From the NCBI GenBank assembly GCA_017430225.1, contig JAFRNK010000128.1:1-60200 (forward strand): DNA of 60,200 nucleotides, in the 5' to 3' direction. A program made the translations under genes and the position numbers. The stretch comes from Clostridia bacterium (GTDB taxonomy: Bacteria; Bacillota; Clostridia; Christensenellales; Aristaeellaceae). Of the stretch, positions 35,440 through 45,029 are shown piece by piece; the first letter of the stretch is position 1, and every line of letters begins with the position of its first letter. The notes under the pieces were generated by a model, which did no database searches, was not told the origin of the DNA, and saw only the letters and a program-made list of their open reading frames with translations.

Positions 35440-36516
35440 TCAGTCTTCTACGCACACGTGCCAGTTGCCATATGGATCCTTGACGGCGCCGGACTGGATG
35501 CCGGTCACGGTGTCATAAAGCTTCTGGCTGACGGGGCCGATGCCGCCATCGCCGACAGTCATGACGTCGTCTTCATAGCGCAGCTTGCCGACGGGGGAGA
35601 TGACCGCGGCGGTGCCGGTGCCGAAGCACTCTTCGAGAGCGCCGGATTTCTGGGCTTCGATCAGCTCATCCACGGAGATACGGCGTTCTTCGACATCGTA
35701 ACCCCAGTCTTTGCACAGGGTGATGACGGAATTGCGGGTAATGCCGGGCAGGATGCTGCCGGAAAGCATCGGCGTGACGATCTTGCCGTTGATCTTGAAG
35801 AAGATGTTCATCGCGCCGACTTCTTCGATATACTTGCGCTCAACGCCGTCCAGCCACAGTACCTGGCTGTAGCCGTCGTCATGAGCCTTGACCTGAGCGA
35901 TCAGGCTGGCCGCATAGTTGCCGCCGGTCTTGGCGAAACCGATACCGCCGCGGACCGCGCGTACATACTCGTCTTCGATCCAGATGCCAACAGGATTGAG
36001 GCCGCTGGCATAATAAGCACCGGAGGGAGCGAGGATGACCATGAACAGGTAGGTCTTGCTGGGAGCAACGCCCAGGAATTCGTCGGTCGCAATAATGAAC
36101 GGGCGCACGTACAAGGAGGTGCCGGGATCCGTGGGGATCCAGTCCTCGTCGACCTTGACCACAGCCTTGATGGCCTGCACGAAATCCTCTTCCGGGATAC
36201 GCGGGATGCAGAGGCGGTCGTTGGAAGCGTTGGCGCGTTTGGCGTTCATGTCAGGGCGGAACAAGTAGGCTTTGCCGTCGACACCTTTGTAGGCTTTCAG
36301 GCCTTCGAACATCGTCTGGCCGTAGTGGAAGACCATGGCGCTGGGCTCCAGGGAGATGGGCTGATAAGGAACGATGCGGGGATCATGCCACCCTTTGCCT
36401 TCGGTGTAGTTCATGATGAACATATGATCGGTGAAAATCTTGCCGAAGCCAAGGGGTTGACCCGGGGCGGGCTTTTGCTTGGGATGCTCGGTGCGCTCGA
36501 TACGGATATTCAGCAT
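35440..36516 (-). CDS. ilvE: Branched-chain amino acid aminotransferase
   Basis: 358 aa. Fold-type IV PLP enzyme that interconverts Leu, Ile and Val with their 2-oxo acids. Visible signatures are VFHYGQTMFEGLKAY, YVRPFIIAT, the Lys region GIGFAKTGGNYAASL and EVGAMNIFF. It is the last gene of the minus-strand unit, 13 bases after the oxidoreductase gamma subunit. In this context it would convert the 2-oxo acid made or consumed by the oxidoreductase into or from an amino acid. Confidence 0.96.
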   Translation of the reverse strand: MLNIRIERTEHPKQKPAPGQPLGFGKIFTDHMFIMNYTEGKGWHDPRIVPYQPISLEPSAMVFHYGQTMFEGLKAYKGVDGKAYLFRPDMNAKRANASNDRLCIPRIPEEDFVQAIKAVVKVDEDWIPTDPGTSLYVRPFIIATDEFLGVAPSKTYLFMVILAPSGAYYASGLNPVGIWIEDEYVRAVRGGIGFAKTGGNYAASLIAQVKAHDDGYSQVLWLDGVERKYIEEVGAMNIFFKINGKIVTPMLSGSILPGITRNSVITLCKDWGYDVEERRISVDELIEAQKSGALEECFGTGTAAVISPVGKLRYEDDVMTVGDGGIGPVSQKLYDTVTGIQSGAVKDPYGNWHVCVED

Positions 36517-36529
36517 GGGTAAGCCTCCT

Positions 36530-37069
36530 TTATGCCTGATAGTTGAGGCCCAGATTCAGGGCTTCGATGTTCTTTTCCAGCAGATCGGCGTGGCGTGCGG
36601 ATACGACCTTCTGCATGGCGGGACGGATCATTTCGTCAGGGATCACATGGGTGTGCGCAATCACGTGACCCATCAGAATCATATTAGCCAGGGTATCATA
36701 ACCCTTTTCGGTGGAAATCGTGGTCGCGGGAATGGGGAAGACCTTGACGTCGTCGCGCTTCACCGGCCGGTTGACCAGGGAACTGTCCACGAAGATGCAG
36801 CCGCCAGCAGGGACTTCGTTCTCGTATTTTTCGAGCGAAGGCAGGTTCATGGCAATCAGGATGTCAGGACGGCCGACGATGGGCGAACCGACCTGGGTGT
36901 CGCTCAGAATGACCGAGCAGTTGGCCGTGCCGCCGCGCATTTCCGGACCGTAAGAAGGCAGCCAGGAGACGTTCCGGCCCTGAAGCAGGCCGGCGTAAGC
37001 GAGGAATTTACCGGCAAAGAGGATGCCCTGGCCGCCGAAACCGGCGATCAAAACCTGAGTCGTACTCAT
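36530..37069 (-). CDS. 2-oxoacid:ferredoxin oxidoreductase gamma subunit
   Basis: 179 aa. GFGGQGILFAGKFLAYAG and PSYGPEMRGGTANCSVILSD are the signature of the POR/KOR gamma domain. Together with the alpha, beta and delta genes it forms the oxidoreductase that interconverts 2-oxo acid + CoA and acyl-CoA + CO2 using ferredoxin. Start overlaps the beta subunit stop (ATGA). Substrate class (2-oxoglutarate versus branched-chain 2-oxo acid) cannot be settled from this subunit. Confidence 0.92.
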   Translation of the reverse strand: MSTTQVLIAGFGGQGILFAGKFLAYAGLLQGRNVSWLPSYGPEMRGGTANCSVILSDTQVGSPIVGRPDILIAMNLPSLEKYENEVPAGGCIFVDSSLVNRPVKRDDVKVFPIPATTISTEKGYDTLANMILMGHVIAHTHVIPDEMIRPAMQKVVSARHADLLEKNIEALNLGLNYQA

Positions 37070-37818
37070 TTTCCCGCCTCCTCACTGTACTTGTCTTTGT
37101 ATACGCCGAGCGGATAGTAGGGAATCATGTTCTGCTCAGCCCATTCGAGCGCTGCCTGCGGCGTCTTGCCCCAGTTGGTGGGGCAGGTCGAAATGACCTC
37201 GATCAGGGAGAAGCCCTTGCCTTCTACCTGGTTGCGGAAAGCCTTTTCGATCGCTTTCTTGGCATGGCGGACATTCTTGACGTTGTTCACTGCTACGCGT
37301 TCAAGATAGCAAGGACCGTCGAGCGTGGAAAGCATTTCGCAGATGCGCACCGGATAACCGACCGTATTCACGTCGCGCCCGTAGGGGCTGGTCTGCGTTA
37401 CCTGGCCGGGCAGAGAAGTCGGTGCCATCTGGCCGCCGGTCATGCCGTAGATCGCGTTGTTGACGAAGATGATGGTGATGTTCTCGCCGCGGGCGGCGGA
37501 GTGGACGGTTTCCGCAGTGCCGATGGAGGCGAGGTCGCCGTCGCCCTGGTAGGTAAAGATGATCTTGCTGGGATCGGCGCGCTTGAGGCCGGTTGCGACG
37601 GCGGGTGCGCGTCCGTGAGCGGCCTGCACCATATCGCAGTTGAAATAGTTATAGGTGAAAACGGAGCAGCCGACCGACGCGACGCCGATGGTGCGGCCGG
37701 TGATGTCCAGACTGTCCATCGCTTCAGCGACGAGCCGGTGAATGATGCCGTGCGTGCAGCCGGGGCAGTAATGCAGCGGGGCGTCTGTCAGCGCTTTCGG
37801 TTTTTCGAATACGATCAT
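37066..37818 (-). CDS. 2-oxoacid:ferredoxin oxidoreductase beta subunit (thiamine diphosphate-binding)
   Basis: 250 aa. The TPP motif is seen as YQGDGDLASIG followed by FVNNAIYGMTGGQ; YCPGCTHGI and VGCSVF are typical Cys-containing segments. It carries the catalytic cofactor. Overlaps the alpha stop by four bases. Branched-chain (Vor-like) or 2-oxoglutarate (Kor-like) use is likely; the neighbouring ilvE favours branched-chain 2-oxo acids. Confidence 0.93.
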   Translation of the reverse strand: MIVFEKPKALTDAPLHYCPGCTHGIIHRLVAEAMDSLDITGRTIGVASVGCSVFTYNYFNCDMVQAAHGRAPAVATGLKRADPSKIIFTYQGDGDLASIGTAETVHSAARGENITIIFVNNAIYGMTGGQMAPTSLPGQVTQTSPYGRDVNTVGYPVRICEMLSTLDGPCYLERVAVNNVKNVRHAKKAIEKAFRNQVEGKGFSLIEVISTCPTNWGKTPQAALEWAEQNMIPYYPLGVYKDKYSEEAGK

Positions 37819-44732: not shown

Positions 44733-44957
44733 ATTAACCCGCGGTACCACTCAACTTGCACTTACGTGCCACTCACGCTCCAACAAGCGTTATGCACTGA
44801 CGCGGCATTCACGGATCGGACTACTTGAAATCGTTCGCTCGATCGGCTCGGAAGGGATAAGCCTGAGACACCGTCTGTCTGCTCGCACCACCCGCAGACT
44901 CTCTGGAAGCCGGGAAACGTCTCTGCCGTCTTCGTCACAGCCTTTGCTATGAACTTG
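44695..44957 (-). promoter_or_regulatory. T-box leader 2 (upstream of ligase copy 2)
   Basis: Minus-strand T-box core AGTGGTACCGCGG at 44739-44751. Stem I has GACGAAG and CTTCCGAG (44847-44854) bracketing the specifier loop, a GAGAC/GTCTC stem and AGAGAG (44899-44904). The loop sequence AGGCTTATCC (44855-44864) gives CTT (Leu, 44859-44861) as best codon because a purine follows; Ile (ATC) is less fitting. TGGT implies a discriminator A. Confidence 0.9.
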
Positions 44958-44981
44958 ATGTGGATGATAGCATGAACTTGA
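44949..44981. repeat. Direct repeat ATGAACTTGA flanking the -10 box
   Basis: Two exact 10-bp copies, 44949-44958 and 44972-44981, 23 bp apart on centre, on either side of the -10 of the ligase copy 2 promoter. The arrangement suits binding of a dimeric regulator on one helix face; the ligase's own XRE domain is a candidate. Confidence 0.6.
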
Positions 44982-44992
44982 CTTTTCGTCAA
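44964..44992 (-). promoter_or_regulatory. Promoter for T-box leader 2 and the ligase-oxidoreductase cluster
   Basis: Minus-strand TTGACG (44987-44992), 17-nt spacer, TATCAT (44964-44969). Confidence 0.7.
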
Positions 44993-45029
44993 TAGGAAAA
45001 CAATGAAAAATCAGAAAAAACAATCTGGT

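Follow-up and report, generated by a model that had tools for sequence, protein, structure and literature searches.

A T-box-controlled gene cluster in Clostridia that probably rebuilds isoleucine and valine from branched short-chain acids

When acyl-coenzyme A (acyl-CoA) ligases share a cluster with a 2-oxoacid:ferredoxin oxidoreductase (Vor) and a branched-chain aminotransferase (IlvE), are amino acids being broken down or built up? The question is raised by a cluster on the minus strand of contig JAFRNK010000128.1 (assembly GCA_017430225.1), from a Clostridia bacterium of the family Aristaeellaceae; the whole stretch analyzed, here called the window, is 60,200 nucleotides long. An earlier reading, made from the sequence alone, had proposed that the cluster runs anabolically under T-box control, from organic acid to acyl-CoA to 2-oxo acid to amino acid, with isovalerate to leucine (Leu) as its example. 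T-boxes turn genes on when an amino acid is short. The specifier codons of the two leaders could have been unrelated to any amino acid made from a ligase product; they are instead those of isoleucine (Ile) and valine (Val), the amino acids expected from 2-methylbutyryl-CoA and isobutyryl-CoA via Vor and IlvE, and this supports the anabolic reading. Relatives point the same way, both in their specifiers and in the scarcity of ilvC and ilvD, neither of which is over cut-off in 31 of the 34 genomes (that of the window included) that carry the ligase family. The leucine example is rejected for the ligase pair in the window, since neither specifier is a Leu codon. We therefore consider it very probable that the cluster rebuilds isoleucine and valine from branched short-chain acids. 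The leaders and ligases are arranged as follows, in the direction of transcription:

44964-44992, minus strand: promoter-like TTGACG-17-TATCAT upstream of T-box 1 (consensus scan, 10/12 matches)
44721-44947, minus strand: T-box leader 1, before ligase A (RF00230, 85.0 bits, E 3e-18, model 1-219 of 219)
44856-44858, minus strand: specifier AUC (Ile) of T-box 1 (RF00230 model column and Stem I helix rule, GAAG/CUUC)
44740-44753 and 42133-42146, minus strand: T-box cores TGAGTGGTACCGCG of leaders 1 and 2 (pattern scan)
44705-44732, minus strand: terminator hairpin of T-box 1, overlapping the antiterminator (12 pairs, tail TTCATTTTTT)
42414-44678, minus strand: ligase A, helix-turn-helix (HTH), cupin and AMP-forming acyl-CoA ligase, 754 residues, residue 459 Gly (Pfam; HTH under cut-off)
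42112-42358, minus strand: T-box leader 2, before ligase B (RF00230, 68.6 bits, E 4.8e-14, model 1-219 of 219)
42268-42270, minus strand: specifier GUC (Val) of T-box 2 (RF00230 model column and Stem I helix rule, GAAG/CUUC)
42091-42124, minus strand: terminator hairpin of T-box 2, overlapping the T-box core (15 pairs, T-rich tail TTTTATTCGT)
39780-42062, minus strand: ligase B, HTH, cupin and AMP-forming acyl-CoA ligase, 760 residues (Pfam; Val clade of the tree)

That two T-box leaders precede the ligase genes, as the sequence-only reading had it, is borne out by full-length matches to the RF00230 covariance model ahead of both. The alignments contain a full-length Stem I, a specifier loop and an antiterminator with UGGUACCGCG in each leader. 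The core pattern alone is not above chance (eight occurrences with three mismatches allowed, 5.2 expected), so the whole-leader model decides. Promoter-like sites (three in the stretch, 1.3 in shuffles) are weak evidence on their own, and terminator-like sites number five against 3.2 in shuffles. The GTG starts in the list of open reading frames (ORFs) fall inside the T-boxes; translation likely starts at ATG 44678 for ligase A and ATG 42062 for ligase B.

The specifier was taken to be the base triplet that lies upstream of the 3' strand of the basal Stem I helix, with a single base between them. The conserved place so defined carries AUC in relatives of T-box 1 and GUC or GUA in relatives of T-box 2; two other candidates, UUA (Leu) for T-box 1 and GCC (Ala) for T-box 2, were rejected on this ground. 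The rule was calibrated on 29 leader loci of relatives, 20 of them readable, 11 of these with an NCBIfam gene name that tells the amino acid. Ten of the 11 agree with their gene: valS (GUU), trpB (UGG), metN (AUG), pheS (UUC, three times), a trpB-like gene (UGG), tyrS (UAC), leuA (CUC) and ileS (AUC), where metN and the partial ileS lie below their NCBIfam cut-offs. The other nine readings come from five third-ligase loci, two LeuA-like loci (both described below) and two uninformative ones, a sodium/solute symporter (L103) and an unnamed gene (L117). Within the genome of the window, the leader about 0.6 kb ahead of valS reads GUC, that of asnB reads AAC and that of a TrpX-type transporter unit reads UGG. 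One further leader (L008), before a gene that we take to be proS, was unreadable by script and gives CCC or CCG by eye.

The ligase leaders were collected more widely. A contig scan for ligase homologues found matches in at least 592 relatives, of which the best 80 loci were kept; all 80 are titled as contigs of metagenome-assembled genomes, and 37 of the titles name a herbivorous host animal. Together with 18 regions around ligases of relatives they make 98 loci, 97 of which yielded 141 ligase ORFs. Under a stricter version of the rule than the one used for the calibrators, 68 of the 141 leaders read Ile (AUC), 45 read Val (41 GUA, 4 GUC) and three read another codon (CCG, GCU, AGA); the looser rule had given 11 leaders a codon for neither amino acid. 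The remaining 25 are unreadable, 20 without a core by pattern and five with a core and no readable Stem I.

The Ile or Val codon tracks the clade of the ligase behind it, and on the proposed substrates it would also fit that ligase's product. A quick maximum-likelihood tree of 144 rows has a branch (support 99) that parts the 46 Val-labeled rows, including ligase B of the window, from the 69 Ile-labeled rows, including ligase A. The Val label requires one change on the tree; shuffled labels require about 36, and none of 500 shuffles is as low, although the shuffles test clustering alone and unlabeled rows may lie inside. By an overlap limit, 22 alignment positions separate the groups. Twenty of these fall in residues 5-213, covering the HTH, cupin and linker, and two in the ligase part: position 745, where the separation is incomplete, and position 459, where it is complete, with Gly in 69/69 Ile-labeled and Ala in 46/46 Val-labeled rows. 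ORFs with unreadable codons also carry Gly or Ala at 459, matching their relatedness to A or B where this is clear.

Residue 459 sits inside the motif GW-G/A-K-x-x-W. Among Protein Data Bank entries, ligase A matches 3ETC best (618 bits, 352 for the next). This is Macs, a 2-methylbutyryl-CoA synthetase of Methanosarcina acetivorans, and in the alignment 459 adjoins the Lys of the acyl-pocket motif, whose Trp follows four residues after 459. The Lys and Trp would correspond to Lys256 and Trp259 of Macs, through an inferred offset of 23. Macs, which is reported to prefer 2-methylbutyrate (PMC10455477), is thus the closest solved structure by sequence, and it has Gly at the place of Gly459, as in ligase A. 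It differs in being archaeal and in matching the ligase part only (residues 237-751 of ligase A). Gly459 may make room for a five-carbon acid and Ala may fit a four-carbon one. The Gly/Ala rule holds only for ligases in which HTH-cupin and ligase are joined, because in some relatives (loci L034 to L046) the two are separate neighboring genes and the place of 459 is Gly, Ala or Met.

The sequence-only reading had not remarked on the N-terminal domains. The HTH is over its Pfam cut-off in ligase B only, and the Cupin_2 domain in both ligases. The nearest named NCBIfam family is MbcS (NF047394), at 435.2 bits for A and 430.6 for B with a cut-off of 850, so that the window ligases may work like MbcS and are not filed as such. 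MbcS, the methylbutyryl-CoA synthetase of Staphylococcus aureus, is described as activating 2-methylbutyrate and isobutyrate, and isovalerate poorly (PMC10026030). Unlike MbcS, the window ligases are joined to HTH-cupin, controlled by T-boxes and placed beside Vor and IlvE.

The genes downstream of the ligases are those that the sequence-only reading had named, a P-loop nucleoside triphosphatase (NTPase), a four-subunit Vor and ilvE, all on the ligase strand:

39111-39779, minus strand: P-loop NTPase of CbiA/ParA type (PF01656, 24.2 bits, under cut-off 25.4)
38892-39098, minus strand: VorD, two-cluster 4Fe-4S ferredoxin subunit, 68 residues (two CxxCxxCxxxCP motifs by eye)
37815-38888, minus strand: VorB, 2-oxoacid:ferredoxin oxidoreductase subunit (NF005507, 539.7 bits, over cut-off 399)
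37066-37818, minus strand: VorA, thiamine-diphosphate subunit (PF02775 over cut-off; NCBIfam names only under cut-offs)
36530-37069, minus strand: VorC, gamma subunit (PF01558, 127 bits, over cut-off)
35440-36516, minus strand: IlvE, branched-chain aminotransferase (TIGR01123, 413.9 bits, over cut-off 250)

An acid-activating enzyme, a 2-oxoacid:ferredoxin oxidoreductase and an aminotransferase thus co-occur in the window, and the combination recurs in some relatives, not in all. The recurrent order is ligase A, ligase B, P-loop NTPase and VorD, B, A and C, with IlvE before or after. Vor and IlvE lie on the ligase strand in eight of the 18 regions around ligases of relatives, one of these with ligase B only, and among the best 80 contig loci there are matches to ligase A in 71, ligase B in 52, the P-loop NTPase in 48, VorB in 46 and IlvE in 34. 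Where at least 5 kb follow the ligase (51 contig loci), VorB is present in 37. The P-loop NTPase keeps a conserved place between the ligases and VorD, matches no family over cut-off and is possibly a Vor helper. Convergent with ilvE, on the plus strand at 31296-35375, lies an ATP-binding cassette transporter (substrate-binding protein, a permease by its look, and ATPase) whose nearest families, under cut-off, are of 2-aminoethylphosphonate type.

If the cluster replaces the usual synthesis of Ile and Val, genomes that hold it may dispense with ilvC and ilvD. Gene presence was compared in 60 genomes, many incomplete: that of the window (G000; 2.65 Mb, 131 contigs, 82% complete) and 59 relatives. 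Over cut-off, ilvC is present in 20, ilvD in 21 and leuB in 19. The ligase family is present in 34 (best E at most 6.5e-86, the next genome at 1.9e-36), a count that takes in relatives with HTH-cupin and ligase encoded separately. ilvC or ilvD is over cut-off in 3 of the 34 genomes with the ligase family (these 34 include that of the window) and in 19 of the 26 without it (Fisher p 3e-7, a test that ignores phylogeny and here draws on incomplete assemblies). For full-length joined ligases the counts are 1 of 17 with and 21 of 43 without (p 0.002). The genome of the window, 82% complete as it is, has no ilvC match and an ilvD match of 516 bits, under the cut-off of 618; ilvB was not searched. 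Within the genus, ligases occur without ilvC in G000, G001 and G004; a ligase is missing from G002, G003 and G005, which have ilvC, and from G006, which has ilvD; G007 has neither.

In the mechanism that we propose, uncharged tRNA-Ile (codon AUC) would open ligase A and uncharged tRNA-Val (codon GUC) would open ligase B. Ligase A, a predicted 2-methylbutyrate:CoA ligase, and ligase B, a predicted isobutyrate:CoA ligase, would each convert their acid to the acyl-CoA with ATP. VorABCD would then carry out a ferredoxin-driven reductive carboxylation to 2-oxo-3-methylvalerate or 2-oxoisovalerate, and IlvE would transaminate these 2-oxo acids to Ile or Val. The Vor-IlvE genes, downstream of both T-box-ligase pairs, would be common to the two routes. 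The scheme supposes a source of the acids outside the cell, flux toward the amino acids and read-through of transcription into vor and ilvE.

Branched volatile acids reportedly serve rumen bacteria as starting material for Ile, Val and Leu (Robinson and Allison 1969; Allison and Peel 1971; Allison et al. 1962). The conversion of branched acids to amino acids is old rumen knowledge (PMC2812497, PMC7356843, PMC10658910), with 2-methylbutyrate described as an Ile precursor and isobutyrate as a Val precursor (PMC7356843), and in one rumen methanogen 2-methylbutyrate is probably turned into Ile (PMC2812497). The proposed chemistry is the same as in that route, which also takes isovalerate to Leu; the window cluster differs in that it assigns genes, with one ligase per amino acid, and places them under T-box control. 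For the Vor and Ior enzymes of a methanogen, too, operation in the reverse, amino-acid-forming direction has been suggested (PMC13285125). T-boxes before biosynthesis genes use the same tRNA-sensing antitermination (PMC2494555, PMC3766115), and the main text of these two surveys mentions neither "CoA ligase" nor "ferredoxin". The literature searched, which includes few subscription journals and is represented partly by excerpts, holds no account of a T-box before an acyl-CoA ligase with Vor, which is no proof that none has been published.

The same enzymes could be read as a catabolic set, in which amino acids are transaminated and oxidized by Vor to acyl-CoA, with the ligases running backward for energy or acid release. 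Vor and IlvE are reversible, the VorB family is named for 3-methyl-2-oxobutanoate dehydrogenase, AMP-dependent acyl-CoA synthetases have been suggested to work in the degradative direction in syntrophs (PMC5017805), and a Vor acts in the oxidative amino-acid fermentation of Clostridium sporogenes (PMC13285125). We nevertheless regard catabolism as very improbable: T-boxes switch genes on under shortage of an amino acid, here Ile and Val, and most genomes with the ligase family are without ilvC and ilvD. Clostridial fermentative Vor enzymes are, moreover, described as accompanied by kinases or ADP-forming ligases, and AMP-forming ligases are said to favor acyl-CoA synthesis (PMC13285125). Equally slim is the chance that the main task of the ligases is to prime membrane fatty acids with branched acyl-CoA. 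This is the reported role of S. aureus MbcS (PMC10026030), the nearest named family; the ligases of the window are, however, linked to Vor and IlvE, separate Ile and Val specifiers track their clades, and there is no fatty-acid gene among the annotated genes of the cluster.

A variant of the anabolic reading keeps its regulation and lets the two ligases overlap in substrate, so that the Ile/Val split would be regulatory and not catalytic. S. aureus MbcS accepts both acids (PMC10026030), and all but two of the separating positions, 459 and 745, precede the ligase part. The fixed Gly or Ala at 459, in the acyl-pocket motif, argues the other way, and we hold this variant to be unlikely, with clearly better prospects than catabolism or fatty-acid priming.

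Several observations weigh against synthesis of Ile and Val under T-box control. Both window leaders score below the RF00230 gathering score of 93 bits, and an Rfam scan of the window at gathering scores therefore lists no T-box. Such low scores are usual in this genome, where just two of eight T-box matches pass and the asnB and valS leaders also fall short (72.7 and 70.4 bits); in G043, the ligase B leader does exceed 93 bits (96.9 bits). We take the window scores to be low as those of divergent members, and call the elements T-boxes provisionally, on their anatomy. The RF00230 alignment of T-box 2 needs a 3-base insertion to read GUC, and the eleventh calibrator, alaS (L113), was misread as GGU. 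At E 0.01, Rfam finds no T-box near the ligases of G050, which has the full cluster, nor at the ligase loci of G032 and G041. In G047, a 39-bit T-box-like element without Stem I (L033 4237-4385) lies about 0.5 kb before a lone ligase; that genome holds ilvC, ilvD and leuB. Of the 18 relative regions, one has a divergent Vor (44-55% identity) and nine have none, on contigs that are short in some cases and not in others, and VorB is absent from 14 of the 51 contig loci with enough sequence. G020, G033 and G047 combine the ligase family with ilvC or ilvD, seven of the 60 genomes have neither the ligase family nor ilvC/ilvD, and the association between the two is subject to the phylogeny and incompleteness noted with the Fisher test.

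With these points counted, synthesis of Ile and Val remains the reading that we prefer. The cluster offers genes, in gut Clostridia, for a branched-acid habit of rumen microbes reported in the 1960s and 1970s. On this reading, a lack of ilvC and ilvD in a genome does not by itself imply amino-acid auxotrophy, and it can be predicted which uncultured gut bacteria need isobutyrate, 2-methylbutyrate and perhaps isovalerate to be supplied. Since the regulatory RNA itself names the amino acid, its specifier labels the ligase product independently, and the two groups labeled in this way differ completely at one pocket residue.

Isovalerate to leucine, rejected for the window pair, does fit another unit in these genomes. 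It consists of a T-box (CUC), a LeuA-like protein (HMGL-like and LeuA_dimer) and a fusion of a xylose-isomerase-like TIM (triose-phosphate isomerase) barrel with an AMP-forming ligase. The genes adjoin in G004 and in G008, and the G008 unit is embedded in the Val-Vor-IlvE cluster; in the genome of the window the genes are split between two contigs (L010 is the start of G000:C124), and the unit is also found at L120 7216-11189 and L083 6102-10036. None of 47 distinct LeuA-like ORFs, some of them partial, has the HxH motif, which we take to be metal-binding in the LeuA family and which the true leuA control has, so the LeuA-like proteins are probably dead as synthases. The catalytic test rests on HxH because an RDGEQ-type pattern missed the true leuA control (L104, RDGNQ). 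Leaders are readable for 21 of the 47, 18 of them Leu (16 CUC, 2 CUG) and three other codons; three ORFs have a core without the helix, eight have no core and 15 have no upstream sequence. For the LeuA-like leaders L002, L100 and L115 the looser rule is wrong or shifted and the stricter rule gives CUC. leuB is present in 3 of 33 genomes with the TIM-ligase and in 16 of 27 without it, where the TIM-ligase is counted as present from 49% identity upward, split genes and fragments included. The TIM-ligase also occurs in four of the six genomes that have ilvC or ilvD and no leuB.

Aromatic acids fit a third T-box ligase, which stands before iorA (720 bits, cut-off 651) and iorB (289 bits, cut-off 230). 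In the genome of the window this unit lies at L009 7970-11933 (G000:C13) with the specifier UAC, for tyrosine (Tyr). UAC is constant in the 10 of 24 third-ligase loci with a readable leader; the other 14 have no T-box by pattern. In L001, L097 and L106, whose helix is shortened by an A-G mismatch, the script picks ACA (Thr); this was rejected in favor of Tyr because UAC is invariant where the following base is not, and because the tyrS leader L102 is laid out in the same way. The Tyr assignment is nonetheless less certain than those of Ile and Val. The unit could make tyrosine from 4-hydroxyphenylacetate. A PDH_N (tyrA-type, prephenate dehydrogenase) gene is over cut-off in 43 of the 60 genomes, including G001 and G004; the unit as sole source of tyrosine is therefore unsupported, and it would often serve salvage.

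The closest precedent for the Tyr unit is a Bacteroides Ior with an AMP-forming arylacetate-CoA ligase, possibly biosynthetic, which differs from the window cluster in being aromatic and not branched-chain; the source does not mention a T-box (PMC13285125). In Geobacter, a predicted regulatory RNA listed under tryptophan (Trp) precedes iorAB-paaK and joins RNA, oxidoreductase and CoA ligase as the Tyr unit does. It belongs to another phylum, is not branched-chain and, in the text available, is not called a T-box, a term given only to that of leuA (PMC2700814). Separately, L011 8276-10498 (G000:C76) has a Trp T-box (UGG) before a lactate-dehydrogenase-like gene and a TrpX-type ATP-binding cassette transporter, both under NCBIfam cut-offs; the dehydrogenase could act on indole-lactate.

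More tentatively, and with somewhat less than even confidence, we propose a general salvage design in which several branched-chain and aromatic amino acids would each have their own T-box and acid-activating ligase. The branched-chain ligases would have a protein sensor as well, the HTH-cupin part for Ile and Val and the dead LeuA with its dimer domain for Leu, and residue 459 would set 2-methylbutyrate against isobutyrate. In or next to HTH-cupin, the candidate Ile/Val sensor, lie 20 of the 22 group-separating positions. In such a design the ligases would be under double control, through tRNA charging at the leader and through the end product acting on the protein. The window also holds, at 56058-57002, a 314-residue LeuB-like ORF (74 bits, cut-off 353) with weak matches elsewhere in the genus, perhaps a relic or a re-used isopropylmalate dehydrogenase.

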